DNA from: Alligator mississippiensis
Lineage: Eukaryota; Chordata; Crocodylia; Alligatoridae
Reading direction: 5' to 3'
Assembly (NCBI RefSeq): GCF_030867095.1
Contig: NC_081824.1
Location: 143,373,433 to 143,437,432 of the forward strand
Length of the DNA: 64,000 nucleotides
Shown: positions 12,753 to 56,535 of the stretch, piece after piece
Numbering within the stretch: position 1 is the first letter of the stretch
How the letters are laid out: each line of letters starts with the position of its first letter
Program-made: the position numbers and the translations under genes
Notes under the pieces: generated by a model
What the model was told of the DNA's origin: nothing
What the model saw: the letters and a program-made list of their open reading frames with translations, nothing else
Database searches by the model: none

Positions 12753-15424
12753 TGCTCAGGTCTTCAGTTCACTCATCCAAGGAACCTGACCTTGCTTCTC
12801 CTAGTTTCCTCCTAGATTAATTCCATCACGGTGCCATTCCTTTTGAGAGAGCTTTTAGCACGTGTGCTCATGTGCAGGGTCATGGGACCAGCATAAAAAT
12901 ATTATGGGATACTTGAAGTAACTCCACTGCACCTCTAGGTAGCTGGGGATGGCTAATCCAGGACCTGCCAAAGTTTGTAGGGGATTAAAGTGAATCATTT
13001 TTAAGATTGTTTTGGATATGAAAACAAAAGGATTTTTTGGAGACTTGTAAGTAGCTGTAGGGGCCCAAACATACATCATATAAGCTTTTCCTGGATTAAA
13101 GGTTCATGTCTAATATGAGAAACAATCAGCATGCTAGCCAGGTATTTTATGGCTCCTACACTCATATGTAAAGCAGCCTGCTAGGAGAGGCCTCCACAAA
13201 TGTTGAACATTTTTTCTCTGAGGCAATGAATTAGAATGAGGGAGTAAAGGCTCATTTATCCTAAATAAGTATATTTCTACAGTGCTTACGCATTGAGTGA
13301 AAATAGATATCAGGATCCCATGTTCAACCAAGGACAGCCTATCCAGATTGGTTGCAAGATCAAGGGTTGACTTGAGATCAGTCTAGCCGGGCCAAGCACA
13401 GAGGTTGTTAGGGCATTTGGAGGAGGGTAGAGTGGGTAACAGTTAAAAGTTAAACCAAGGCAATCCTTTAATGCAGATTCACTTAAGCCAAAGTAAGCCT
13501 TTTTTATCGAGTTAGCAAGTCAGGAAACTGGCTTGCACAACAAAGATATGAGCCAAGATTAGAACAATCAAAGTACTTCTTCTGCATTTAAAGTTTGCAC
13601 TGCTTTATCTTGATCTTGAAAAGTTATTTACTTAAGTCAGTGCTCTTTTCTAGTATAGACAAGGCCTTAATTCCTCTCCCTATCTATTCCTAGGGATTGA
13701 GAAGTGCCTAGAGACAGAAGGCAAATAGATGAACTGAAAACAGTTAAATCAGTTGAGAAAAAGGGGCAAGGAAAGAGGAAATTTAAATGCTCTATACACT
13801 CAACTCCTAATTCAGCCTTGCAAAATTCTACTCCTCCACTTGCCCAAGTTGATATTTTTAACAGTAAAATGAAGTATAATTATGTCTATCACTGTAATCA
13901 TCAGCTCCAAAAAAGTGGTGTAATTGGCTAGCAGTCTTTGCATGAAACAACTCATCCTCTTAACAGGTATTGAACCTGATGGGAGAGGGTAAAGTATGTA
14001 GTGCCCAGTCACTGAGGCACCTTCCCTTCACAGCGGAATGAGTTGGAGTGATTCTTCAGTGAGAGAGATTCAGTGGTGTGGGCTTAACAGTTCTGAGGAA
14101 GGAGCCGTAGGTATAACCTAGACTGGTGGAAAGGGTTGGGCTGATTGGGTCTTGTTGTTGTTTTCTTTGTGAATAAAGCCAAAGCCGAAGATTAGGGTTA
14201 ATTAAATCTTCTACTTAGTGCATGGATTACCCATTTTAGATAGGCAATTATGCTGGACTAATATACTTTCATAACAATTTTGCAAGGCAGCTTTAACATG
14301 CCAACTCTGATGCATCATGGGTGAGCCATTCAACTCCACAGGGAGGAGATGGAAGAGAAGATGGAAAACAAAGACACTAGCAAAAATTTCAGTGACAGGT
14401 AGCCATCATGAGAAATCATCCAGTTCTTTGTGAGCACAGAAATGGAAGAGTCTTTTGTTGCTAGAAATCAGGATTGAATCTGTAATTATAGTAGAAACTT
14501 TGCAGTGGGACCCAAGGGATGTGATTCATGTAATGCAGATATTACAAGGTCCATTGGTAAATCATTATATTCATTTTGTTCATACACTCACCTTATCAGA
14601 TTCATTTTTTCTGGGTGTACATGGGGTGTGGTTCCATAGGATAAGTACAAACAGAGCCTAACTGGACACTATAGAGAAATTTAGTCTCCGGATACATTTC
14701 ACCAACGATAAATTCATTTAAAACATTTATAAATATTTCAACAGAGTGGGGGAACACTGCACCATAACAAAGAAAGGAGTAACCTCTCTTTTCCTCCCCA
14801 GAAAAAAAAAAAACCTCAGACCCTAAACAGAAACTTGTCCATTTGACCCAGGAAAGCACATAGGGCAGTCATTTAGGCCAGAAAGGGCCACATTTAGGTA
14901 TGATATGAGCATGGATAACTACACTAGCCTCAGTAGGGTTAAACATGCTTACATTAAGTTATGTTTTTTGCTTTGGTGACTGGAGATTTCCATGATCATC
15001 TGTGGGATTGTGACAACAACAAGATAGTTTGGAACCTGTTGATTTATTGGAGAAAGCCACAGGTTCCTTTTGGTGAAATCAGTGATACATATTCTGATAA
15101 GGTCAACTCTGTTACCTTTGACCTAATTCTCATTAAAAACACCTTTGACCCAGTTGTTGGACAAGGGCATAAAGGAAAATATCAATAAACCACAGTGGAT
15201 AAATAAACATTAAGCTAAGCACATTAGATGAATAATTGAAGGGTAAACATGCCAAAGTTTTCCAAAGCCATTAGGATCAAGGTGAAATGATGGATACTGA
15301 GCTATCCACACAATGATATTTTAAATATACAGCTGTCTGCATACATCTTTAACCAATTCTTCCATTTGAGATGCTGACCAGTTCATTACCATTCCATGGG
15401 AGAGACAGGAAGGAGACAATGACT
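12753..15424. other. Intergenic, no gene seen
   Basis: This is AT-rich intergenic sequence with no recognised exon or complete repeat. Open frames are short, lack motifs and have no splice context. Confidence 0.4.
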
Positions 15425-16050
15425 CTAGTAAAGCGACCAAAACGCTGGCTTGCATCCATAGATGCTTCTCAAGCAAATCCCGGGACGTTATTCTCCCCCT
15501 GTACTCAGCCTTAGTGAGGCCGCAGCTGGAGTACTGCATCCAGTTTTGGGCTCCACAATTCAAAAAGGATGTGGAGAAGCTTGAGAGAGTCCAGAGAAGA
15601 GCCATGTGCATGATCAGAGGTCAGGGAAGTAGACCCTACGATGACAGGCTGAGAGCCCTGGGGCTCTTTAGCCTGGAAAAGCGCAGGCTCAGGGGTGATC
15701 TGATGGCCACCTACAAGTTTATCAGGGGTGACCACCAGTATCTGGGGGAACATTTGTTCACCAGAGCACCCCAAGGGATGACGAGGTCGAATGGTCACAA
15801 ACTGCTACAAGATCGTTTCAGGCTGGACATAAGGAAGAATTTCTTTACTGTCCGAGCCCCCAAGGTCTGGAACAGCCTGCCACTGGAGGTTGTTCAAGCG
15901 CCTTCATTGAACACCTTCAAGATGAAACTGGATGCTTATCTTGCTGGGATCCTATGACCCCAGCTGACTTCCTGCCCTTTAGGCAGGGGGCTGGACTCGA
16001 TGATCTTCCGAGGTCCCTTCCAGCCCTAATGTCTATGAAATCTATGAAAT
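15425..16050 (+). mobile_element. CR1 LINE 3' segment with intact ORF2 C-terminus
   Basis: The plus strand encodes an open 147-residue end of CR1 ORF2. It includes RPQLEYCIQFWAPQF, LFSLEKRRLRGDLMATYK and RKNFFTVRAPKVWNSLP, stopping at 15957. After the stop comes the CR1 3' UTR motif 'ggctggactcgatgatcttc' and the tail repeat 'tctatgaaatctatgaaat' at about 16030-16050. The uninterrupted frame suggests a fairly young copy, though 5'-truncated at about 15425. Confidence 0.9.
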
Positions 16051-37623: not shown

Positions 37624-37749
37624 CTACAACCTTGTTGAGGTAAGTCTTTTCATTCCCCTCCTCTGAGCCAGATTGGAGGACAATACAGGTTCCAGCCTTG
37701 GTGCCTGAGGTGTTCGGTTTAAAGCAAAGTAGGTGGCTGCCATTGCCCC
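37624..37749 (-). CDS. RPS6KA2: RPS6KA2 last coding exon
   Basis: It encodes 41 residues and a TAG stop: [19 protein letters not shown], then [20 protein letters not shown] and RL. The acceptor is TTGCAG at 37755-37750. The ATYFALN helix corresponds to the autoinhibitory alpha-L helix of the C-terminal kinase (its Tyr is equivalent to RSK2 Tyr707). The [10 protein letters not shown] stretch is the ERK-docking D-motif that recruits ERK1/2. Nothing is truncated. Confidence 0.96.
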
Positions 37750-38147
37750 CTGCAAGAGGAGAAAGAGAAAATGCTGCGATTATGGCCAGTTCTATGATTT
37801 CTTCCTTTTCCTTCCCTGACTCTTGTCCCAGAGCAAAAGGATAATCTCCATTAAACATTACAGATATAGGGCTTGGTGATTCTGATTCTAAACATTGGGT
37901 AGTGGAACTCCTGCCAGTTCATTACACAGCAATAGAAAGTTACAATTACTTGAAGAGGACAAGTGGAAAAGCTGTATATATTTACTGTAATGCTATATTA
38001 GCCTTGGGCTTGTTGGGGAAAAAAACCCCTCCCTAGTTCCTATATCTCCAGCATGTTGACATAAAACCCATCTTCTCATTGTTAGTCAGCAAACGGAAAG
38101 GAACCTTTTCACATGGGAACAGGATGTCCAACAGACACTATGCGTAC

Positions 38148-38285
38148 CTTCACCAGGTGAACATCCTGTCTGCTGAGTTGATTTTGAGACAGATATTCCC
38201 TGTTCACTATCCACGGGTGTCTTAGCACTTGAACTGCTGTTAGTCGCTGATGAGGATCTACATGGAGCATCTTGGACACAATGTC
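38148..38285 (-). CDS. RPS6KA2: RPS6KA2 exon, end of C-terminal kinase
   Basis: 46 codons, phase 0 at both ends. It starts [20 protein letters not shown] and ends [10 protein letters not shown]. The invariant kinase arginine of subdomain XI (HQRLTA) is present. The acceptor is ACCACAG and the donor GTACGC at 38147-38142. [16 protein letters not shown] closely follows human RSK3 and differs from RSK1, RSK2 and RSK4. Confidence 0.96.
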
Positions 38286-38774
38286 CTGTGGTTGAAGAGG
38301 AAGGGAAGAGTAGTAGGAAGGAAAAGAAAGTAATTACGTTCTGCAGAAACTGATTGGAAATATGTTACCAAGATCTTTCCCTCTCGTTCCACCAACAGCA
38401 AATATTGTAAAGGCTTAAATGTGGGAGACATCTAAGCTTTTATAATAATTTGCAAATTAAAAACATAACTTTCTAATCATGATAATAATAGCAGCAATTT
38501 TCAAACCCACACTATGCTGAAATCTCATGATCCCATCTTGATCCAGTGGTGCTGCTGTGAAAATGAATTATGATGAAGTAAGTGACAATATAGAGGTGAA
38601 ATCTGGATAGCTTATTAAACCATCATCTGAAAACTGAGTCTGTAATCTTCACAGAGACACGGGCAGGTTAGTAGAGCTGGAAATTTTCTGATAGATTGTA
38701 TTTTTGTTGGAAAACTCCAGCTAAGATGGAATAGTGAGTACGAGTAGGGAAGTCATTTCACCTGTGTGTATGGC

Positions 38775-39195
38775 AATGGTGTGACTGATTCTAGAACACT
38801 AGATTCTAAAATCCAAGAATTTAACAAAGAACTGTCTAAATCACAGAGACTGCAGAAAGAGAAGAGCCAAAAAAATGATTCAAGGGCAGGAAAAATGCCA
38901 CCCAGAAAAGACTTAAAGAGATCAGGTGGTTTAGTTTATAAAAAAAGAATTTTGAGAGGTGGCTTGACTAGTGCCCAAGGACTTCCACAGAAAGAAACTA
39001 CCAGTTAGTAAAAAGTTCTTTAAAGTACTGAAGAAAGGTAAAAGCAAGAAACAATGGCTGGAAGCCATATTCAAACAAATGTGAATTAGAAATAAGGCAC
39101 CGATTTTAACATTAGGGATATTTAACCATGGCAACAAACTACCAAGGGAAGTGATGGATTCTCCAGCTTCTAGGCTGTTTACATATGTGAAAAAC
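38775..39195 (+). repeat. Ancient CR1/L3-like LINE 3' segment
   Basis: Reading the plus strand gives decayed ORF2 C-terminal pieces: GGLVYKKRILRGGLTSAQ (compare the usual ...RRLRGDLI...) and later FNHGNKLPREVMDSPASRLF (compare LPREVV-type ends). Interruptions are many. It lies in the RPS6KA2 intron between the last two large exons. Confidence 0.55.
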
Positions 39196-39939
39196 CCCAA
39201 AACAGCACTTCACTTTCAATTCAGCATGCCCCGGCACCAAGTGCACTGCATGCACAGAAGAGGCATTGTGTCAGTTTGACCCAGCTCACCCAGCATCTGT
39301 ATAGATCACGTGCTACAGCAGGACTTTTTGGCGCTTTTATCAACTAGCTGATTGAATTTATCAAATAGCTGATTGAAAATTGATGTGATGCCTCTTCTGT
39401 TAAAGCTCTGTGTTATTGTTTGTCTTTTTTATGTCTGTCAGCAGCGTTAATATCTTTAAGTCAAGACTATCTGGAAGATATGCTTTAGTTGAAACCAAGT
39501 TACTGTCTGTATTACAGCAGAAACTGAGTGAAGTTCTTCAGCTCTTGCTTTCTAGGTGGTCAAACAAAATGATCTAAAGGTCCCACCTGGCCTATGGCTG
39601 TCTGAGTGGATGTCTTGCAGCTAAAGTGCAGAGGTAAGATTCAAAGGCCATCATTTCTAATGCTTAACTCTTCCACAGACTTCCTGCATTACTGTATTTA
39701 CACAAATATAAGACAAGGCTTGTACCCACAGTCAGCATGGGGGGAAAAGCCCTCATCTTAGATTTGCATGCAAGGACAACTAGTTAAATACATTGCCTAT
39801 CATTAAATGGCTGCCAAAAGCAGCATCTGCTCAGTAATGGAAACCACTGGTGACACATAGGGGGTGCACGCACACCCCCTGAGATTGGCAGTGCACCCCC
39901 TACAAAAAGCACTGCCAACACTGCTGGTGATGCCTGTGT

Positions 39940-40235
39940 GCAGTTGCCACTTGCTACCCCCCTCCTTGCTGCTGACACCACCAGCGGTGTCTGCAAGTGG
40001 TTCCTGATCGCTGCTGGCCTCCGCCGTTGCTGCCGGCAGCATCTGCGGGTGGTTGCTGACCACTGGTCAGCAGTCACTACCCCCTTCCTTGCTGCCAATG
40101 CTGCCATGGCCACCTGCGGGAGCTTCCTGCTCAGCCCGCCCCTGCCACTGACACCGCCATGGCTGCCTGTGGGAGCTCTCTGATTGCCACCACCATGCCT
40201 CTGCCACTGCCACCACCTGCGTGGTTGCTGTGCTC
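39940..40235. repeat. GCTGCC-rich diverged minisatellite
   Basis: Loosely repeated words such as 'tgctgcc', 'cctgcgggagct' and 'ccaccac' recur several times in 300 bp. The open frames on both strands are compositional. It sits between the putative MITE end and the 28S-like fragment. Confidence 0.5.
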
Positions 40236-40241
40236 CCCCAG

Positions 40242-40632
40242 CCTCCGGGTCTTCTCGGAGTCGGGTTGCTTGGGAATGCAGCCCAAAGTGAGTGGTAAAC
40301 TCCATCTAAGGCTAAATACCGGCACGACACTGATAGTCAACAAGTACCGTAAGGGAAAGTTGAAAAGAACTTTGAAGAGAGAGTTCAAGAGGGCATGAAA
40401 CTGTTAAGAGGTAAACGGGTGGGGTCTGTGCATTCTGCCTGGAGGATTCAACCTGGCGGGCTCGGTCAGCCAGCCCAGGATGGATCCCCCTCGCCCCCCC
40501 CTCTGCGGGGGTGGGGCGGGGTAGTTGGGGACCGCTGCCCGGATGGCCCTGGCCCCTGTCAGGCACCCTTTCACCGTGGCGGTGCACTGCAATCAGCTCT
40601 GCATCAGCTGGGACGGTCTGGTGGGCAGGTGT
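40242..40632 (+). pseudogene. 28S rRNA-derived fragment
   Basis: The plus strand matches the 5' part of vertebrate 28S rRNA (end of D1 into the D2 expansion segment). Recognisable words are CGGAGTCGGGTTGCTTGGGA, AAACTCCATCTAAGGCTAAA, TCAACAAGTACCGTAAGGGA and GAGGTAAACGGGTGGGGTC. The D2 arm is shortened but keeps its far side (CACCGTGGCGGTGCACTGC, GCTGGGACGGTCTGG). Differences are mostly CpG to TpG or CpA, the mark of methylated neutral decay, so this is a dead genomic copy and not an rRNA gene. The full gene is about ten times longer. Confidence 0.9.
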
Positions 40633-40789
40633 GCATACAGCGTTCATGATGGAAACCAACTATAAAGCTAACTGAATGCAGCCAACACTGAGCATGATTA
40701 TAAAACACATGGCCCATATTGACAAACATACTGATGGGAACTTTTGTTGCATGTGTGCCCCCTAAAAAATGGGTAGTTGTTTCCCCAGG

Positions 40790-41085
40790 ACAAAATAGGC
40801 ACCGGGCCTGGACGTACCACAATACTGGGCCAGCACTAAGAGAGGCCAGAACAAGCTCCAACATCTCCCTAGGTGCCAAAAAGGCAGATGAGAACCTGAG
40901 GATCTTTTTTCTTTTTGGTCTTGAAACAAATCAAAAAGGAAGCTGTTCCCTCCACAGGGAACTGACACCAGGACTGGAGGTACTGCAATACCAGGCTAGC
41001 ACCAGTAGGGCCAGAGCCAGCCTTAATGCCCTCACCTTAGTGCCAAAAATGTTTGATCTTAGCAAAAGGCTAACACGCTACCTCA
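40790..41085 (-). repeat. Tandem U2 snRNA-derived element (SINEU-like)
   Basis: On the minus strand the right-hand copy (41085-40960) has the U2 5' end GCCTTTTGCTAAGATCAA, skips the Sm/middle region, and resumes with the 3' half including CCTGGTATTGCAGTACCTCC, an exact 20-base match. The left-hand copy (about 40905-40790) repeats the 3' half more diverged: TTTTTGGCACCTAGGGAGAT, GGAGCTTG and CCAGTATTGTGGTACGTCC. SINEs with U1- or U2-derived heads, sometimes stacked, have been described in crocodilians, and this structure fits them. A tail may run to about 40640. It is not a functional U2 gene because the Sm site and branch-pairing region are missing. Confidence 0.82.
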
Positions 41086-41252
41086 AAGATAGGTCAGTGC
41101 AGTCCATCTAAATGAGATTTCTGACAGTGTCTATTGTGGTCAGTCCTCCTCAGCACCAACTCTTTTTGAAGTTATGGTGAGCCACTATATTGCATATATT
41201 TCAACCTCTTCACTCCCACAGCTGAGCTGTGCCTTCCTTACCCATTTCCAGT

Positions 41253-41488
41253 GGCTGTGTCGACATGAGATGCTGACTGCACAGTAGCCTGAGATTACTG
41301 CGTAGAATTATCATGTGTCAGAAAGCATGATGCAATGCAGTAGTCTGGGGCTAGTGTGCAGTTACCGTTTTGAAAAAGTTGTTTGTCAACACTACTGACT
41401 ACTGTGCAGTCATTTAGTACTTGTTTATATAAGTACTAAAGACTGCACAATAACGATTGCAGTGTCAGCATCTTGTGTAGATGCGGCC
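41253..41488. mobile_element. 3-bp-TSD MITE (GGGTGCATCTACATG family)
   Basis: The ends are GGCTGTGTCGACATGAGATG and, reverse-complemented, GGCCGCATCTACACAAGATG. The flanks are AGT at 41250-41252 and AGT at 41489-41491. The interior holds 'actgtgcagt' and 'tttagtact' words as in the copies at 23971, 49830 and 59224. Confidence 0.75.
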
Positions 41489-41492
41489 AGTA

Positions 41493-42280
41493 GGGCTGTG
41501 CAAAGCTTTGGTCACTAATTCAATTCAGCGGAGATTCGGCCCAATTCAGTGGCTGAATCTCCAAATCCGAATTGAATCAGGAGACCCTATAATCTCTCCA
41601 AATTTAATTGGAATCCTTTGAATTGATTCAGAGAGATTTGGAAAGATTCAACAATTTGGACATAGACACAGCTTTAAATGTTTTTTCTACATACCTCAAG
41701 GTACCAGGCAACTTGTGAATGCTGCGATGATGGGGTGGATGAAGCATCCCACAGGAGTGCAGGGGGCTCTGCAGCATGCTCTGCAGCAAACCCAGAAGTG
41801 TACCAGAAGCACTTTCTGTCTGCTTCTGGGTCCACCAGGGAGTGCGCTGCCCTGCTTTGGCGACTGGTGCCTCCTGGTTTTGGGGGGGCACTCAGGGTCC
41901 CACGGACAATTGCTGAGCCAGGGATGTATGGGGGGGGCCCCCGTGTGCTCAGCAGCAGACCCAGAAGTGGACACTTCCAGGTTTGCTGCTGAGTATGTGG
42001 GGGGCCCCCCTGGGCCCCCCTGCACTCCTGTGGGACACTCCTTCCTCCCCACCATCGCAGCATTCATGAGCTATGCCTGGTACCTTGAGATATGTAGAAA
42101 AAAAATTTTAAGCTGTTTATATGGCTGAATCGCTGATTCTCCAAATCATCATCGAATCTTTAGATTCAGATTTGGCCAAATCAAATCAGGGACAGTGATC
42201 GAAATCAACAGATCAAATCATTGTCCCTGATTCAGGCTGAATCTGAATCCAAATTAAATATGGCCTGTTTTGAATACTCC
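41493..42280. mobile_element. Mariner-type non-autonomous element with TA duplication
   Basis: The ends are GGGCTGTGCAAAGCTTTGG and, reverse-complemented, GGAGTATTCAAAACAGGCC. They are flanked by TA at 41491-41492 and 42281-42282. The subterminal sequence is rich in 'gattcagcc' and 'gaatctcc' in both orientations, and the centre is GC-rich. The open frames in it carry no transposase motif. The left TA uses the T of the neighbouring MITE's AGT duplication. Confidence 0.65.
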
Positions 42281-42844
42281 TAGTGGCCAGTGATTGCTGT
42301 TTTTTCACCAGCCTTAAATGTCTGGCAGCCATCACCAAACTGGGCTCCAAACAGTTCATCCAGAATCCCCCTGTCATCCTCTCTCTCAACCTGACACATA
42401 TGATTAGTGTGGCTCTGCCCTCCATGAGCTGGAGCCAGACCAGGTTGCCCTGTGCCTCATCTGTATATAAATTTTTGGAGGGTCCCAGGACTTGTGACAA
42501 GAACACTTGGTTCCAGTCATGAGTGGAGGCTAATTGACTCTCATTTCCATGTTAGCAGGGGGAGCAGGATCTGACAGTAAGGGGCAGGGGGAGAACAGGG
42601 AAGAAGTTGCGGGGGTGGGGGGCGGGGGACAGAGAGCAAGGGAACTGCCTGATTCCCCCCCTCCCCACCCCCCTGATTTATTTTCCCTGCTATAGCACTG
42701 GCAGGGGGAAAAAATTCAAGGCAAACCTCCAGTAATTAGGTTCTGTACCTGGAAAATTATAACAAATTTATAAATTTTCCATATATATAGAATCTAATTA
42801 TTGGGGGAATTGTCTTATATTCAGGGCTGTCTTATACTCAAGAA

Positions 42845-43165
42845 AATAAGCTACTTTGGACAAGACTCTTTGGCCAGTCTGAGACACTTTGGACCTAATT
42901 CTCAGAAGTGCTGAGTACTTCAAGCACTTCAGATTTTCTGTACCTTTGAAAACATGTCTGGGACCTCAAACATTTGACTATCCAAATTAGGGGCCACATC
43001 TGAAGCTGAAGGCTATAATCACTGTGTGCTGCAGTCTTTTCATCTATAAAATGGAGTCAAGAATATTTGGTCCTCTCTAAAGGAATGTTTGTAAAGTCAA
43101 CTAAAATATTTGAGTGGAAGGTGCCATGCAAATACAATGTCAATTATTATTAACATAAGACCAAA
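42845..43165 (+). repeat. Ancient MIR/L2-like interspersed repeat
   Basis: The plus strand has 'tcttttcatctataaaatgg' followed by decayed 'gtgccatgcaaatac'-type sequence, the 3' signature shared by old amniote MIR/L2/CORE-SINE repeats. It is weak and diverged. Confidence 0.45.
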
Positions 43166-43571
43166 CATTTTCAAGTGTACACTAAAATGTAAGTTTATGG
43201 GTTGCCTTTTAAAGGTTTGCTGTAGTGAGCAACAAAGTGATCTACAAATAAATAACACATCTATGGTATTGGGTCACCTACATTTTTGAAAGTTTCTGCC
43301 AAATAAAAAAAGGGGGTTTTAATATTTCAGTATTCAATATATTTGTAGGTTACAGGGTCATATAATATGTCACAGTCAAAACATGGTGCAAACATTTCTA
43401 ATGTACTAATTCAAACGGAACAATAATAACATACACATTTCTCATTGAAGGAGACATAAAGAATGAATATTCTGTTGATTTTTCCTCAGATTTTCTAGAA
43501 AGGATCTTATGACAGAAAGAATAATTGTCCGTTTCAGTAAATTAGACTCAAACCATGACAAATCCACTGAC

Positions 43572-43689
43572 CTTTGCAGCATCTGAAACTGAATCCCAAT
43601 TTCCTCCTGTAAGTGCATATTTGCCACTGCCAATCCTGGCCAAAATCTCTTCTGGGGTGTCATCTGGTCCATTTGCAAAAGGGGTGAAC
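43572..43689 (-). CDS. RPS6KA2: RPS6KA2 exon, kinase C-lobe
   Basis: 118 nt that complete a split Gly codon and add 39 codons: [20 protein letters not shown], then [20 protein letters not shown]. The acceptor is TTGAACAG and the donor GTCAGT at 43571-43566. It forms the region after helix F of the C-terminal kinase. Frame and phase (2 in, 0 out) agree with both neighbours. Confidence 0.95.
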
Positions 43690-44065
43690 CTGTTCAAAAA
43701 ACATCACAGACATGTATGTATTGTAGTTTGCAGGCACAGAATTACAGTTTCTTATTTTGTAGTCCTGACGCCTGTAAATAATCATTAGGCCTTTGAGTAA
43801 GGACTGCAGAAGCATCTGCTCAGTTTTCATTCAAAGTATAGAATATGCAGACGTGGTAATCTGTGTTAGCTTGAAATCAGGCAGAAGACAGGGCAGTATG
43901 GCCTCTTAGGCCAGGTTCACAAGAGCAGGAGCATGCCTTTACAGCAGCACAAATACTAGTGGCACAAATTTGTGCTTCAGTGCACGCCCCTGCCCACGTC
44001 TTTTGCAGCAGGACACATTCAAGGAATTTTGAAGTGTCCTGTTAGAGGAAAACTCTTGCACTTAC

Positions 44066-44142
44066 CCCGCCAACATAGTGTACAACAGGATCCCTAAACT
44101 CCAGATGTCACAGGCTGCGTCATAACCTTGCCGTTTTAGGAC
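44066..44142 (-). CDS. RPS6KA2: RPS6KA2 exon, helix E-F region
   Basis: 77 nt encoding VLKRQGYDAACDIWSLGILL, then YTMLA and two bases of Gly. It contains the DIWSLG motif of kinase subdomain IX. The acceptor is AACATAG and the donor GTAAGT at 44065. GILLYTMLAG is the RSK1/RSK3 form rather than the GVLLYTMLTG of RSK2. Confidence 0.95.
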
Positions 44143-44394
44143 CTATGTTAAAGAAAACAGAAGACAAAAATAAGGGGGTCAATTTATGTTTCTAAATTCG
44201 TAACTTCTGAATGTCAGGGATGGATGTAGCGGCAGCAATCTCTTCATATTGGCAGGGTAATTCTGGCATACCAGTAGAGTATGTTGTTGTCTAGGGCAGC
44301 AAAATATTCAGTAATTTTGTGTGTATGTAAGGAGGGGATGGAAAAGGAGGACATTTACCGCTGTTTAAGGTAACAATCTATTTAGCTGCCCCTA

Positions 44395-44575
44395 GACACT
44401 TGATTCTAAAGAACCCACATAACAAAGAAGTTTCCTTGGAAGCTTTTAAGAGCAGGTTAGACATTTGACTGGGGTGCTTTAGTCAGGGATGATCTTGTCT
44501 TGAGCAGGGAGTTGCATCAGATGACTTCATGAGGTCCCTGCCAGCCCTATTTTTCTGTGAATCTATGAGAAAGAG
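44395..44575 (+). repeat. CR1 LINE 3' end
   Basis: The words 'tcagggatgatcttgtcttg', 'tgacttcatgaggtccctgc' and 'cagccctatttttctgtgaa' followed by 'tctatgag' form a CR1 terminus on the plus strand. It is 5'-truncated. The CpG-dense block begins right after it. Confidence 0.8.
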
Positions 44576-45520
44576 ACTGGGTTTTCAAAGTGTCCCAGGG
44601 GAGCGGGGGCACTGGGAGACCCCCGCGGTGGCCAAGGGGTCTGCTTACCTCCCGCAGGGCCGGAAGACCCGAAGAAACTCCACGTGCCGGCGCTGCCGGC
44701 GCGGGTCATCAGCCGGGCGTTTATCCGGCTGTGGCTGAGCGGTGGGGGCGAGGCACGCCGGCCGGGAGGAACAAAAGGCGGCCCCGCTGAAGCAGCGGGG
44801 CAGCTGAAGGGAGAGAACTGGAGCGCGGAGCCCCAGTGAGCAGGGGATCAGCCGCCACCCGCAGAGGGCGGGACGCCGCCGGGTAGAGGCGGAGCAGGCT
44901 GCGAGCAGCGCAGCGGAGCACCCAGAAGGGAGGAGACAGGGGGAGAAGTCAGCCCCAGAGGCGGGGCAGCAGCCGGCGGGGAACCCGACACCCGAGGCAG
45001 CGGGAGGCGTAGCAGCTATCCCGAGAGTGGGGCCAGCTGTAGCCGGTATTGCGAAGCCGACGGAGCGGGTAACTGTGGCCGGGACTATTGGGGAAGCAGA
45101 GAGGACGTCTGCATCCCAAGGAAGGAGGGATCAGGGCAGCACCCCCCAACTGGGAGGGCATACCCGGTCCGAAGACAGCCGGTAGTGGCTAGGGTGACCG
45201 AGCCGAGAGAGGACGAGATGAGGACGGGTGAGAGGCCAGGACAGAAAGACCTGAGGTGGCGTATGGCAGGGGTGTAGGGGAGGACGGAGCCCCGAGAGTA
45301 CCCGCAAAGAGGCGTGCCAGCACCAGGGGATACCCCAAGGGAAGACCCCCCCACTGAGAGAGTCATCAAAGTCGTGGCAGGCGAGTTCTGGGGTCCCCCT
45401 TAATACCAGCCGGGGCAAACCCTGGGGCGTACCAACGAAGCTTGGGGGCGCAAGATCCCGAGCCCGGGCGAAGGCGGCGTGCGAGCTCCTAATCGAACGG
45501 AGGCGGGCACACAAAGCAAT
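44576..45520. other. CpG-dense intronic block of unknown nature
   Basis: About 0.95 kb of very GC-rich sequence with CpG retained throughout (for example CCGGCGCTGCCGGCGCGGG at about 44686), in contrast to the CpG-poor intron around it. No CCAAT or TATA arrangement and no splice-linked exon were seen. The open frames on both strands are low-complexity. It could be a CpG island or alternative promoter within RPS6KA2, or the 5' region of a young retroelement. I cannot decide from sequence. Confidence 0.5.
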
Positions 45521-45524
45521 GGCT

Positions 45525-45800
45525 CAAACCAATTATTCACACAAGCACACTGAAAATGTGTAGACTGGACAATGTAAAGCAAGGTACAGTCACCCTTACA
45601 TGCAAACAAATCACAGAAGAAATCAATATTGGGACTGAGAGACACATTACTAACTTTACTACTGAAGCAAAATGTGAACAGTCTTTACAGAGTTTAGTTA
45701 AAATGATTCTAGACATTAGTAGCATGAATCTCTGGCAATGTAAAGCGGGGGTACCTTTATACACATCTAGGGTCCCGTTATATGGCTAAAGCATTGTAAA
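45525..45800 (+). other. AT-balanced continuation with a small open frame
   Basis: Directly after the CpG-dense block, composition drops to ordinary. A 77-codon frame (45556-45789) reads MCRLDNVKQGTVTLTCKQIT and onward, Glu/Thr/Ile-rich, without a recognised domain. If the CpG block is the 5' end of a retroelement, this would be the start of its coding part. If not, it is a chance frame. Confidence 0.25.
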
Positions 45801-48139
45801 ATAGCTTTTGTGTAAATGACATTTAGGCCCAAGGGTTTGATTTTCGAAACGGTCCATGTATGAATTCAGTTATCAGACCTGCATGCCAAAATCAGCTTGA
45901 GTGCAGGACGTAGCATTTTGTGAAACCCTGCATCTACACTTGGAAAAATAATGGTTGAGTTTAGATAAGACTTAGTGAGCACATATCAATCAACCTCGCT
46001 TGACCTAAACATGACCTTCACCAAGCTTGGGCAATGGCAGAACACGCTTACTCTCCTCCTCTAGGTCTGGCCTTACTGCATCTGCAACACTCTTGGTAAT
46101 CTCCAACCCAGGAGGGAATGTCTTAAATCTACAGGAAAATGGGTCATGTTTAAAAGCATTTGCCAACATGTTTTAGCAAGTGTTTTTTTTTAAAACACTG
46201 GAATAGACCGTTTTAAACTTTAAAAAATATGCTGGCTGGTGTATATTGACCCTAGAGATATGCAAGTCAAAAGGCATCAACCTCCATGTACTCAGATGAC
46301 AAGGTTCACAGTTAGGGCAGTGGTTACTTAAGGCTATCTAATTGATGGCCCACAGGCTGCATCCAGACCTGAAGTCCCTAGGCCCCTAATCCTGACATGG
46401 CTCCCCTCACTGCTCCAACTGCTGCTGCCACCAGAGTCTCTGGGCTCCCCCTCCCTCCTTCTGCTTTTGCTGTCTACCCCTACTCCTGGTGGCCCACGGG
46501 GTGGCCCATGGGTACCTGCAGCTGGGAGAGGACCAGGAACCCTGCATGGTGCAGTATGGGGGTGATGGCATGGTCCAGCAAGGGGCAGAGGGGGCCATGT
46601 GGTGTGCAGGGCTTTAGCATGGTGCAATGCGGGGCAAGGAGGCACCGACCTGGTGTGTCAGGGAGGCATGTGGCTAGGGTCTTGAGACCACCAGTCACTC
46701 AGAAGTTGGACATCCTTGATCTAAGACATATTAGGTGACCCCTCCTCTAGCATTGACCTCCCTTCCTAATCTAGACTTACCCACTGCAAAACAGAACCCC
46801 AGAAGGATTTGCTTGTCAAATCACTTCTCAAAATATAACTGCACTTAATATTAATATTGGAATTTTAATCAAATAAGCCCCTTGGGTTATACTAGGGGCA
46901 CTTAAATTTGACTAGGGAACTGAATGTGGTTTAAAATATGTATCTAATCCAGCTCTTAGCTCAAGAAACTGCAAGCCACTTGAGAAATGGGGGTACTTCA
47001 GATGTTACCATTCAGTGCTGAAAATGACCCAGAAGTTTATCTCAAATCATCAAACCACTAGGCTATTGTATCACTGGGCTAAAAATATCATGAACATACT
47101 CTCTTCACAGGTATTTTCTGCTTTGACTTGTAATGGAAATTGGGAAATCTACAGGAAAATAAAAATTAAAAATAGCCCTTACATGTTTGTAGACTAGAAA
47201 AGGTTCTGTTCAGATTTCCATTGACATTTGAACAATGAAGTTTGCTTGTTTTATATAAAATGTCCTCCTATATTTGGTCATGTAACAAATGGTTTCTTTG
47301 GCTTGTTTTTTCCCTGAATGAGCCTGTTTTACTCTTTGCAGAAAGCATTACTCCCACCAGGTGGTGTACTGGTTCTTCCTCTTAGAACTCAGTTAACTAT
47401 GTGCCTTCTGCTACCAAAAATTAAACGCTTTTCATAATAAAGGGAGATTTATGTAAGCAAAATGTGTTATCTCACATTTGTCATCCTCTGCTTGTATCAT
47501 ATGCTCAACTGACTTCTTAACTTCCTATTTAATTTCATAAGTACATTGCAGAAATAGTTGCAGGGTGGCTTAGAGAAAGTACAAGGCAAGTCTGGGCTGG
47601 AGGACACATTATATTATAGGGAAACTGTAGTAGCAGCCCTTAGGATTTATTTAAATTTTCATCTGTAAACTACCAGTTCTGAAAAATGTTTTAACTAATC
47701 TCTAATGTTCCCAGAATTTCTAGGACATGTTTTCCTCATTGTGAGTTGCTGAGAGTATGATTTCTGCCTTCACTTGGCCTTAATAAAGTGTAATCTGACA
47801 ATGTGATGGCCTGGCGATGTTTCTGATTATGGACAGTGTACCAAAATATTTAGTAATCAGAAGAAACACTTAGATAGTGGAGGCATGTTATTCGTTGAGA
47901 AAATGTCAATATTAAAATCTTATAAGCCCAGTCCATTTTCAGTAGAAAAAATTCTATGGTTATGCAACCACAGTACCTTTTTTCATTAAACCTAATATAT
48001 TTTAAAGAGTTAGTTCCACATTTCAGAATTGAAAATCAACCAAACAATGACTAAATAACAGATTTTCCACTTAGCAGTGGAAGACATTAAAACAATAATA
48101 AAATACCTGTATTGATTTCATTGTTATGCATTGAATATG
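45801..48139. other. RPS6KA2 intron with a probable DNA-transposon remnant
   Basis: Between 46318 and 46725 a GC-rich segment is bounded by 'cagtggttacttaaggc' and 'gttggacatccttgat', termini that resemble hAT elements, but they do not pair well. The rest is AT-rich intron with no exon. Confidence 0.35.
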
Positions 48140-48690
48140 GCTATAAGCAGTCAGTGTGGCGACATCTTTCGTTATACCAACTAGATAGTTGCAAAAACAA
48201 TTTCTTTATTTGCAAGCTTTCGGGCTCATGCACCCTTCCCCAGGCAAAGGAGAATGCAAAGATTGTAAAATTTCTCCCAGGTAGAAATGAAACGTCATAT
48301 TTCACAGGAGAGCTGGACGGTGGTGTAAGTTATCCCGTCTGGGAAAGTTCATTTAATGCAAATTAGGCTTGGATAAAACCTAAAAACATCCTGCTTGCCA
48401 TCAGACACCTTTGAGTTAAATAGACTGCTCCGCCTTTTATCTGAGCCTAATCTGCATAAAATGAACTTTTCCAACCAGGAGAACTTCTACCACCCTCCAG
48501 CTGTCCTGTGCAATATAAAGTTTCATTTCTACCTGGGAGAAATTTTACAGTTTTTACATTCTCCCTCACTGGAGGAAGGGCACATGAGCCTGAAAGCTTG
48601 CAAACAAAGAAATTATTTTTGCAACTGTCTAGTTGGTGTAATATAAGATATCACCTCTACCGCACTGCCTGCTTTTGCTTTTTAGACCAA
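48140..48690. repeat. Large foldback (two head-to-head repeat copies)
   Basis: Arm about 48165-48395 is the reverse complement, with scattered mismatches, of about 48400-48655. Examples are TAGTTGCAAAAACAATTTCT against TAGACAGTTGCAAAAATAAT, the shared GCAAGCTTTC.GGCTCATG, and the shared AAATTTCTCCCAGGTAGAAA. The right flank carries 'tagaccaacatggctacaac', the word also next to the hairpin at 2759. It is a dispersed element in inverted pair. Confidence 0.75.
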
Positions 48691-49504
48691 CATGGCTACA
48701 ACCTTTACCCTTGAATATGGCTATACAGAAGGTCCCTGAACAACCACACTAAGTGGAAAGGAACCCTGTGTAGTTGTTATGAAAATATGGTGGACCTCCT
48801 GACACTTTGAAGTTGTTACAAGGAAAGAAACTGCACTGCAGAAACAAGAAGCAGTTGACTGAACGTGTGGTTGATTGGAGTGTGTTGACTGCTCAGTGAT
48901 CTACAGTAGATCATTATAGGTCACAGAGCAGAAGCTTGTGTCCAACACTGTGAATCTCATCATAAGACAATGAGAAGATGTCAGCTCAATAAATGTCACA
49001 TTTTGACACTGGATGGCTACAATCCATATTTTTTAAAAGCATCTCAAAAGGACTGCTGATAGGAAAACCAATCCTATTTTTCACTTCACAGTTATAAGCT
49101 TAACTAAACTGCTAAGTTTTCTTGTGGTGATTGGAGTATTATGGGGAAATGGGGTTGTGAAATGGGTACCAGCTGACTGAAAAATGATGTCTGACAGAGG
49201 ACGAGATGCAATCTTATGATAAGAAACACTTCTGTATTTTGTCATAGGGCAGAAACTAGCAGAGACAGACAAAGCTGTACATTGAGGGTACAAGAATAAG
49301 CTCATGAACATGACTTGAAGACGTGATAAAAAATCGCGTGGGAGCTAAACTTGTTGAAACTTCATAAGAAGAGCAGATACGGGTTTGTCCACCAGCATTT
49401 CAGGTGGACAAACCCATAGAGAGTGGGCAACTTAAATCATTCAAACAGGGAGAGAAACCCAATCCTGTTCCCATGGTTACCAATGAGCATAAGAGAAGTA
49501 GAAA

Positions 49505-49715
49505 GGAAGAATGCTAGTTTAGTTTGGAGCACTAGCCTTGGGACTCAGGGGGTAGTTTCTGCGTTGCTGGGCAAATTGCTTATCTTCCTTTTACCTTAGT
49601 TCTCTATGTGTAAAATGGGGATAACAGCTCTTCCTTGCCTACAGTGTTGCAAGGACAAATATATTAAACACTGAGAGATACTTAGATGCAATAGTGATGA
49701 GGACCATAAAAGGAC
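49505..49715 (+). repeat. MIR-like ancient SINE
   Basis: The stretch shows 'tgggcaaattgcttatcttc', 'tgtgtaaaatggggataaca' and 'gttgcaaggacaaatat', the order seen in MIR/CORE-SINE-type repeats. It is strongly diverged. Confidence 0.5.
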
Positions 49716-49829
49716 CATAACTGAGAAAGAGAGATAACATTCCCATAATAAGCCACACTCTGATACCCTTCCTTACTCTAGACAGCACTGGCTCAACAGG
49801 ACAACACAAAGGGTCAGGTACTATTCAGT

Positions 49830-50881
49830 GGGCACATCTACATGTGCTATTCATGCTGTAAAGGCTAACTGCACAGTAAAATACTGTGGGGTAAACCTTC
49901 CCTGGGAGCAGGTCTACACATGCTCCCTGTTGGAAGCAAATCTGGTTTGCCCAGTGCAGGGCTGATCCTACCCTCTGACCCCCTGCAGCAGCCGGGGCAG
50001 CTCTGGGCTCCCCTGGAGTGCTGGTCTGGGGACTGATAGGAAGCATGGGGGCTGGTCCCTATCTGCATGGTGCCAGAAGAGCTCTGCCAGCTGCAGTGGC
50101 AGCTGTCTCCTTGCCCTGTACACATTAGGAGGGGTCCTGATGTTCAGGGGACCAAGAGACTGTTGCCACTGCAGAGCTCTCCCAGTCCCCTGTACATGGG
50201 GACAAGCAGAGTGCCCACTGGGACTTCCCTGCACAGTTGGGGGCTGGATGGGAGATGCCCTGTAAGTGGGACAGCTCCTGGTCAGCCCATGGGCTGCTCA
50301 GATAAATCCTTGCCCAGTTCTCACCATCCCTGGGCTGCTTGGAGAAATCCCCACACAGTTGGGAGCTGGCTGGGTGTGGTCCCAGAAGTGGGACATCTCC
50401 TAGCCAGCCCCCAGATGTACAGGGAAGCAGAGAGCTGCCCAGATCCAGTGCTGCTTGACTCCCAGCTCCTGTGGGGAGCCAGGAGATGAGCAGCACTGGG
50501 ACAGGGTGGGGCAGAGAGCTATCCCATCCCAGTGTTGCTCCTGGTAGGAGCTGGCAGCACCAGGACCTGGGGAGTTCTCTGTCTCCTGTGGATTTCTAGT
50601 GTTGGGGCTGACTGGAAGCAAATTTATTTCTGGTAAGCTTCTACACATGCGCTACTGTGCAGTATGTATTAAATAGTTAGTTTACTACTTGCATTTACAA
50701 GTCAGTAAATGCAAGTAGTAAACTAACTATTTAATACATACTGCACAGTAACTAATTTATTGCTAACTGCGCAGTAAACTAATTTATTGTGCAGTAAATG
50801 GTGTGCACATGTAGATGGTGATGCTCTATTTCGTAGTAGATTAGTCTACTGTGCAGCAAAGCATCTCATGTAGACACACCC
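49830..50881. mobile_element. Long copy of the GGGTGCATCTACATG MITE family
   Basis: The ends are GGGCACATCTACATGTGC and, reverse-complemented, GGGTGTGTCTACATGAGAT. The flanks are AGT at 49827-49829 and AGT at 50882-50884. A GC-rich centre (49970-50640) separates AT-rich subterminal parts. The open frames there have no motif. The element contains the perfect hairpin at 50653-50750. Confidence 0.7.
50653..50750. repeat. Perfect 46-bp hairpin
   Basis: Arm 50653-50698 is exactly complementary to 50705-50750 across the six-base loop AAGTCA (50699-50704). The arm contains ACTGTGCAGTATGTATTAAA. It lies within the MITE. Confidence 0.95.
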
Positions 50882-51826
<945 letters not shown>

Positions 51827-52992
51827 CTAAATTTCTTAGAGTATAGGACAACAGTGCAAAAAAGTCTCTTATTTGAGGTAGGTAAAGAGTAGTCCTTGAA
51901 AGAAATACATTTTTTTGTGTGGTTGTTTTTAAATGAATGAGCTGAGGTTATGGATGCAGAATTGTACTTCCATTAAAATCAGAAATAATAATACTTGTGC
52001 TGATATAGCAAGAGGGAGGCAGATGTTCCAGTGGAAGGAGTCTTTTGTGTGGGTTAGCAGAGGCAATTACTGAAGAAATACAATACAGCACTCTAAAAAT
52101 ACAGGAAGCTCTTGGGATCTGAAAGGTTTAATCCTTCCATTAAAAGGGCAGATTGCCAGAGGAGGAAAGTGTTGACTCATTCAAGGGTGAGGATCTTCCT
52201 GTGACTTTCTTAACATGAGTGGCTCACAATGAAAAGGAGACATTTTTATTTATCTTCATTTCCCTTCCTAAAATACTGTGCTCTGTTTTGCTAGAAGTGC
52301 CTCGATTTCAGGAGACGTGAATAATCTCTATATGTGACAACTCTTTTGGAAAACTGTCATGACAACGAACTAGGCCAGGCCAAAAAAACAATGCTCAAAA
52401 GCCCCCGCCAAACTCATTTGGACCATGGTGATGCAAAAAGAAAAGCTATTTTACTAGATCATCAAAAATGTTGATAAATTTTTTGAATTGCTACATGTAG
52501 AGAGGGCAGGTTTCCAAACTGAGCGTCATTATAGGATGTTTAAACCTTTTCCCAGTAGATACCTTAATTTGTATGTACACTTGAAAAATAGGCCTTTGCT
52601 TTTAGGTCTAAGTGCTGATCTGAATATCCAAAGTGTTTGAATTTTGATATTTTATTATATAGCTCTAATCTACAAGGTGGTTGGATACTACAATGGTAGC
52701 TGTGGTATCAATAAATAACACCATCAACATAGGTAGAACTAAAAACTGGAATAATTTAAGATGAAAAATACAAAATAAACAAAAGGCATTTGGTTTGCAG
52801 AACATCAGGAGGACCTCAGAGACCATTCTGCACATTGGACATAATTATAGATATTAAAAAAATAAGAATTTCCAAACTTCTGTCCATTCCAAGAACTGGT
52901 CACACATTCTGGTCAGTCCCTATTTTACATTTCTTTTCTAGCAAACAGTTGTTAACAAGGCTGATGTAGAAGACAGAGGCAATAACACTCAC

Positions 52993-53151
52993 ACCCTGGG
53001 AATGCAGATAGTCCACAGTCTTGGCAATAGTGCAAAGGACAGCACTAGCCTCTCGTTCGGAGAAACACTTCTGTCGAAGAATTCTGTCTAGGAGCTCTCC
53101 TCCTCGCATGAGCTCCATCACCAGGTACACATATTTTCCATCATCATAAAC
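52993..53151 (-). CDS. RPS6KA2: RPS6KA2 exon, hinge and helix D-E
   Basis: 159 nt, 53 codons, phase 0. It starts [20 protein letters not shown], continues [16 protein letters not shown] and ends [10 protein letters not shown]. It covers the hinge (VMELM) and the helix leading into the catalytic loop. The acceptor is CTTCTAG and the donor GTGAGT at 52992. [16 protein letters not shown] and VLCTI are RSK3 hallmarks. Confidence 0.97.
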
Positions 53152-53699
53152 CTAGAAGAGCAGAAAACCAATAAGATGCTATAGATCTATTAGACTAGCT
53201 AGCAGTGGTCTCTTTGCAGTGACCCTGGCATATTACTGTAAGATGCTGAAAGAAGAAAATAGGTGCTAATATTTGAAAAGTGAATTTTATGCTCATTATA
53301 CCTAAAATGTATAAGTATTTTTTTAGAACAGGGGTTAATCAAGGCTGCCGACTCATCTCTGAAGCCACTATGTAGCCTACCTACACAGAAGCCCAGTTTT
53401 CAAAGTCTGCTCTGAAGTCAACAAAATATTAATAAACCAAGCTGTAGATGCATTACCAACAAATGGATCTTGAAATCTTAGCTGGCTTTAAACCAAACTT
53501 CCTCACAGTAATTTGCTCTTCCAAGTTCTACAGTGTAAAATTTGCCATTTTAAATATCAATATGTTCCTTTGTCTCATAATCAGCTAAATGAACTGCCTT
53601 ATTCTTGGCCAAGACTCACCTTCAATGATATCATATAGCACATACTTTGCTGTGCTGGTAAGTAAATCATTTATGTTAGTTTCAAAATATGTTGACATT

Positions 53700-54400
53700 T
53701 TTACATAATTCTAACAAAGCATGACTGGAAGGGATCTCAGGAGGTCATTTAGTCCAACCTGGACTGTAAGGCAGGATCACCCTGTCTAAATCACCCTATC
53801 AAATTGTTTGTCTAACCTATGGCTTGTGGGCCAGATCTGCCCCCCTCCCCCCCCAAGTGACTGGATCCAGCCTGTGACATGGGGGATTAGCAACAACAGC
53901 TTTCCTAATATCCAGTGATTTACTACCCCCCTCCCCCTCCTGCCCCCATGAGAAAGTTTTTCCTAATATTTAACCTAAACTTCCATTGCTAAAATTTGAG
54001 GCTATTGATTTTTCTTCTGTCATCTGCCACCGCTGAGAACAGTGTAGCTCCATCTTCTACGGAACTGCCCTTCAGGTAGTTGAAGGCTGCTATTAAATCC
54101 CTTCTCAGTCTTCTCCTCTCCAGACTAAATAAGTCCAGTTCCCTCAGCCTTTCCTCACAAATCCTGTGCCCTAGCCTCCTCATCATTTTTGTTGTCCGCT
54201 GCTGGACTCTCCCCAATTTGGCCACATCCTTTCTGTAGTGGCGGGGGGGGGGGGGGAGGGGGCAAAACTGGACATAGTACTCCAGATGTGGCTTCACCAG
54301 TGCCAAATAGAGGGGAATAATCACTTCCTTTGATCTGCTGGCAACACTCCTACTAATGCAGCCCAGTATGCTGCCAGCCTTCTTTGAACAAGGGCTTTCT
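53700..54400 (-). mobile_element. CR1 LINE 3' segment with a small insertion
   Basis: Read on the minus strand, the part from 54390 gives AGSILGCISRSVASRSKEV, KPHLEYYVQFC and LFSLERRRLRRDLIAAFNYL, the CR1 ORF2 C-terminus. The 3' end ('ctggaagggatctcaggagg' at 53725) follows. Between about 53805 and 53940 a short unrelated piece ('ctatggcttgtgggccagat') interrupts the 3' UTR. A poly(G) run lies at 54243-54256. Confidence 0.85.

Positions 54401-56535
<2,135 letters not shown>

Follow-up and report, generated by a model that had tools for sequence, protein, structure and literature searches.

The window, a 64,000-nucleotide stretch of Alligator mississippiensis DNA, carries on its minus strand a series of exons (37627-56535) matched with a human RSK-family peptide. 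Two SINEs with U2-like stretches (minus strand, 41078-40743) are bracketed by exon pieces at 43572 and 38312 and thus probably lie within an intron of an RSK-family gene, in accord with the intron location proposed in the earlier note. A further segment on the plus strand (15356-15508), opposite to the other exon matches, has 43.6% identity over 55 aa (E 9e-7) to part of an N-terminal RSK kinase domain.

Both SINEs are framed by a copy of a DNA transposon, bounded by inverted repeats near TACCATATTTACTCAAATATAAGAC with TA at the tip and lying in the minus orientation. Its 5' terminal inverted repeat (42829..42853, TA at the tip) has 6/25 mismatches to the expected repeat, and its 3' end occupies 39690..39846, where the terminal inverted repeat (39690-39714) has 3/25 mismatches. 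A block at 42287..42535 is common to other copies, as seen when the window copy (L009) was compared by BLAST with 29 further loci, and host sequence adjoins the SINE insertion site on its 5' side (41079..41253) and its 3' side (40649..40730). Two later insertions are private to the window copy relative to the 29 aligned loci. The first (41254..42286, about 1 kb) contains long inverted repeats, one with arms of 67 nt (84% identical) and one with arms of 51 nt (88%), has AGTGGC at both edges, and is perhaps a fold-back DNA transposon. The second (39847..40648, 802 bases) is flanked by ATGGAAACCA at 39837-39846 and 40649-40658, contains a 28S rRNA piece recognized by Rfam as LSU in two matches at 40133-40510, and may be an rRNA-bearing retro-insertion.

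Reading along the minus strand, the insertion site holds an outer SINE (40897..41078, 5' boundary approximate), an internal 12-bp target copy (40885..40896; GGTTCTCATCTG, two differences from GGTTCCCATCAG), an inner SINE (40743..40884), and a 3' target copy (40731..40742; AGTTCCCATCAG, one difference from GGTTCCCATCAG). The 5' target copy is eroded at this locus (6/12 mismatches). In the outer unit, U2 nt 12-30 align at 41070-41053, with an equal score in 2/1000 dinucleotide shuffles, and are joined almost directly to the U2 3' half (nt 99-191 at 41050-40957), a match equalled by 0/1000 shuffles. The inner unit aligns with U2 nt 100-184 at 40882-40799 (0/1000 shuffles) and has no U2 5' part, the alignment score for that part being reached by 863/1000 shuffles. 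These results bear out the two successive U2-like segments, the second a 3' half only, that the earlier note had read from the sequence. The 20-mer that it called exact in the segment joining the U2 5' end to the 3' half, CCTGGTATTGCAGTACCTCC, does lie within the outer block; it is one base off from the U2 gene copy used from the genome. Rfam matched the outer block alone, at 27.3 bits (gathering score 46). Both units contain runs of five or six T on the SINE sense strand (40743-41078) and are without the U2 promoter; such runs are expected to stop RNA polymerase III.

The two units belong to different subfamilies. At 12 positions diagnostic for subfamilies A and B, picked with the window locus left out, the outer unit has 11 A and 0 B states and the inner unit 2 A and 10 B. 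Identity to the majority sequence of its own subfamily is 86.9% for the outer unit (A) and 79.6% for the inner (B), so that the outer copy is indeed the less decayed and the inner more diverged, as had been proposed; cross-subfamily identities are lower (outer to B 74.5%, inner to A 73%). Local tandem duplication of one SINE would also set two related units head to tail, but the membership of different subfamilies, the identity of only 63% between outer and inner unit, and the recurrence of the same arrangement at other loci leave it with practically no probability.

Between the two U2 stretches lie a complete A-subfamily tail, an A-rich end, and the target copy, after which the subfamily B SINE begins, with its own tail and A-rich end. 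The locus is thus two complete SINEs of different subfamilies, each with its own tail, split by a target copy. The stacking suggested earlier therefore holds for insertions and not for heads on one SINE. Addition of another U2 head to the 5' end of one element has a precedent in the repeated head gain reported for SINEU, and subfamily A itself joins a U2 5' end to a U2 3' half, but given the tail, A-rich end, and target copy that separate the U2 stretches, we consider such an origin of the pair very improbable.

A search of the genome (2.35 Gb) with positions 40780-41100 yielded 682 candidates, of which 40 were scored and gave at least 42 matches, and similarity between the window copy and the 29 other loci extends far past the U2 part on both sides. 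The many copies and their shared tail identify a SINE, as the earlier note had favored over a one-off retropseudogene when it proposed this search. A U2-derived head, a tail and A-rich end common to copies scattered through the genome, and target-site duplications at the family level were all found, and U1 pieces are present in longer elements at the same target site; the two units fit the dispersed crocodilian SINE family described as SINEU. Among 83 units typed, from loci chosen by similarity to the window copy or its flank, 36 are A (with the U2 5' piece), 34 are B (3' half only), and 13 are untyped. The direct fusion of U2 5' end and 3' half seen in the outer unit is common to the A subfamily and could be a real head addition. 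Other arrays also show tail, target-like copy, and second unit in succession, some with eroded targets, and a longer outer variant, C, is found before B as is A.

The insertion target is the 12-bp GGTTCCCATCAG, a fixed site inside the DNA transposon. Four empty host copies (L048, L059, L060, and L064) read GGTAGGTTCCCATCAGTATGTTTG or close variants and contain the target once, while filled copies show, in order, GGTTCCCATCAG, SINE, A-rich tail, a GGTTCCCATCAG-like copy, and a TATGTTTG-like flank. When 37 loci were picked by the host 5' flank alone, 19 ran from the 5' flank straight into the 3' flank, in several cases having lost a few bases at the site, and the remaining 18 were filled, deleted, or unresolved; genome-wide, 278 empty sites were counted by pattern (up to two mismatches). 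At five loci (L014, L050, L056, L066, and L068), upstream elements with an A-rich tail lie 5' of the SINE and are followed by a longer target copy including a GTGGTA-like stretch, which looks as if it had been nicked further upstream. The likeness of the target to U2 nt 41-52 raised the U2 gene as the original target, a candidate that found no support: only 9/12 bases match, and this is equalled by 335/2000 shuffles of U2 when both strands are allowed and by 194/2000 on the same strand. A search for A-tailed insertions at the target-like position of U2 gave 47 matches, all AATCTGTTC (a U2 variant), of which none were A-tailed.

We conclude that two separate retrotransposition events very probably placed two SINEs at one site of one DNA transposon copy, a reading that draws directly on the two complete units, their differing subfamilies, the target copies, the empty sites, and the way A and B are ordered in other arrays. 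At the window locus, the first insertion into GGTTCCCATCAG would have been that of a subfamily B SINE, made up of a U2 3' half and its tail, and would have duplicated 12 bp. A subfamily A SINE would then have entered the 5' target copy, so that a third copy of the target came to separate the units. The enzyme of a LINE using the same site presumably carried out both insertions by target-primed reverse transcription. Because the A-rich tail abuts GGTTCCC on its right, the first nick under this mechanism would fall between GTGGTA and GGTTCCC. The 3' copy would then carry an A-rich tail where the 5' copy keeps GTGGTA before GGTTCCC, and since GTGGTA is kept by the 5' target copy alone, new elements would be expected to enter on the 5' side.

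Genome-wide pattern counts at up to two mismatches, for which six reversed-pattern controls were all 0, found host sequence followed by A at 104 places and by B at 45, an element tail followed by A at 41 and, among the matches listed, by B at at least 55 (106 in total at up to three mismatches), and tail followed by host at 214. The host 5' flank adjoins A more often than B, and B is more often behind another element (Fisher p 3.4e-5, three A and three B places that fit both patterns being counted on both sides). Neighboring pairs among the places listed (100/104 host-A and 100/106 tail-B) comprised eight A-B and one B-B, with no B-A or A-A. Upstream of B, in 20 fetched of the at least 55 tail-B sites, we found A in 10, another element in 10 (mostly LINE 3' ends or U1/U2 compound SINEs), and B in none; upstream of A, in 20 fetched of the 41 tail-A sites, another element was found in 15, A in three, and B in one, with one undecided. 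The single B-before-A case in the fetched sample, its B truncated, breaks a strict order. LINE 3' ends were also found ahead of A as well as of B, in each case separated from the SINE by the same target.

The frequency of A-B pairs (half of the tail-B sites fetched) and the similar divergence of A and B within pairs would also be expected of a dimeric SINE, in which a single fusion of A to B in a source gene produced a two-unit RNA that is mobilized as a whole. Against this, both A and B occur directly after host sequence at the 104 and 45 places given above, as read from the 5' neighbor; B is preceded by elements of several kinds; and two outer forms, A and the longer C, each occur before B. 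We regard a dimer as unlikely. Sharing of target variants within a locus was not above chance, nor was it in the 5'-3' control, and therefore says nothing on dimer versus serial insertion. Divergence in 14 A-B neighbors, compared without the 13 untyped of the 83 units, lay in the direction expected if B is older in 10/14 (mean difference 0.009, p 0.30), which does not establish a greater age for B. Under serial insertion, the A-then-B order would be explained by preferred reuse of the regenerated 5' target.

The neighbors that recur at this site include two families, Y and Z, whose 3' ends are LINE-like, as well as the compound U1/U2 SINEs. From four regions of roughly 6 kb each, lying upstream of SINEs, six peptide pieces were compared with Pfam: one matched RVT_1 above the Pfam cut-off (E 9.4e-11), two fell below it (RVT_1, E 1.9e-5, and Exo_endo_phos, E 4.4e-4, in one piece each), and three had no Pfam match. 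In L148, the Y 3' end is joined to a 5' end that directly follows the target and resembles U2 nt 1-38 (score 41.5 vs at most 29.5 at 19 empty sites). The U2 starts of L148, L102, and L095 each beat 1000/1000 shuffles.

A genome search with one such U2-like LINE 5' end gave 40 matches from 122 candidates, and 31 of the 39 other matches reached the first 12 query bases. Twenty of the 31 were retrieved and put into one alignment with L102, L148, and L095 (n=23), a sample that favors copies retaining the U2 start, since the query itself held one. The majority sequence of the 23 matches U2 nt 1-42, a part of U2 that ends near the branch-site recognition region, with a score of 60.5, compared with 18 for U1. 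These LINE copies at the target (L148:2615-2680, L102, L095, and L152-L171) align singly from U2 nt 1-5 in 19/23 cases; 22/23 come after host sequence and 1/23 after another element's tail. No U1 or U2 start was found in two copies of family Z, their 5' ends being seemingly truncated. The SINE heads are without a 3-base insertion present in the LINE and are thus unlikely to derive from this LINE in its present form.

Elements at this site that begin with a U snRNA 5' end include subfamily A, part of the compound U1/U2 SINEs, and one LINE family, with subfamily B (U2 3' half) as the exception. We tentatively suggest that the 12-bp site may act as a one-way landing strip, although we hold this broader reading to be somewhat less probable than its contrary. 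Each insertion would leave a fully usable target on the 5' side only, so that SINEs, compound U1/U2 SINEs, and LINEs would pile up with the newer mostly 5', and the 5' pile-up would form a rough time record. The reverse transcription machinery would tend to finish by jumping onto U snRNAs, and the LINE may have kept one such jump as a heritable 5' end. The site amounts to many natural repeats of one experiment, with the same target, different elements, and a readable order, making it testable from genomes how SINEs gain heads and why target-specific retroelements might stack one way. An inherited U2 5' end in a LINE, if true, would imply that a captured snRNA piece may be incorporated lastingly into an autonomous element, beyond a one-off accident.

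SINEU elements, crocodilian SINEs with U1/U2 heads, reportedly gained their heads repeatedly according to the 2015 work of Kojima. They reportedly prefer a particular Mariner transposon, Mariner-N4_AMi, and a crocodilian Tx1 LINE goes by the name Tx1-Mar; no paper on the names Mariner-N4 and Tx1-Mar was found in the literature searched. The elements described here have in common with SINEU their heads of U1 or U2 origin, a tail shared among scattered copies, and target duplications, and their fixed site in a DNA transposon with TA-tipped inverted repeats may correspond to the Mariner preference, but the window locus differs, in a comparison with SINEU by description, in being two insertions of two subfamilies at one site. 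SnRNA-headed crocodilian SINEs are cited in the available portions of PMC5753468 and PMC8010984. The U1/U2-headed crocodilian SINEs and snRNA-LINE-1 chimeras are already known; what may be new is the ordered stacking and a LINE whose copies share a U2 start.

Sequence-specific crocodilian Tx1 LINEs are mentioned, with reference to Kojima, in the portion of PMC5753468 available to us, and the LINE at the SINE target, with putative endonuclease-like and reverse transcriptase pieces, would resemble them as far as that text describes them. The Utopia LINE, present in alligator according to the accessible part of PMC4640811, targets U2 genes and encodes an endonuclease of the restriction-like type. 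On that partial account, Utopia is likewise a target-specific LINE associated with U2, but the LINE here lies in a transposon and one of its pieces weakly matches the exonuclease-endonuclease-phosphatase fold.

Chimeras of LINE-1 with U1-U6 snRNAs are known, and those of U6 and LINE-1 are independent events that are usually not self-propagating, as stated in the available text of PMC13174262. As far as that text goes, these chimeras resemble the present elements in carrying a U snRNA piece in sense at the 5' end of a retroelement. They differ in that here the same U2 5' piece occurs among copies of subfamily A and among copies of the LINE, and for this reason the piece looks inherited.
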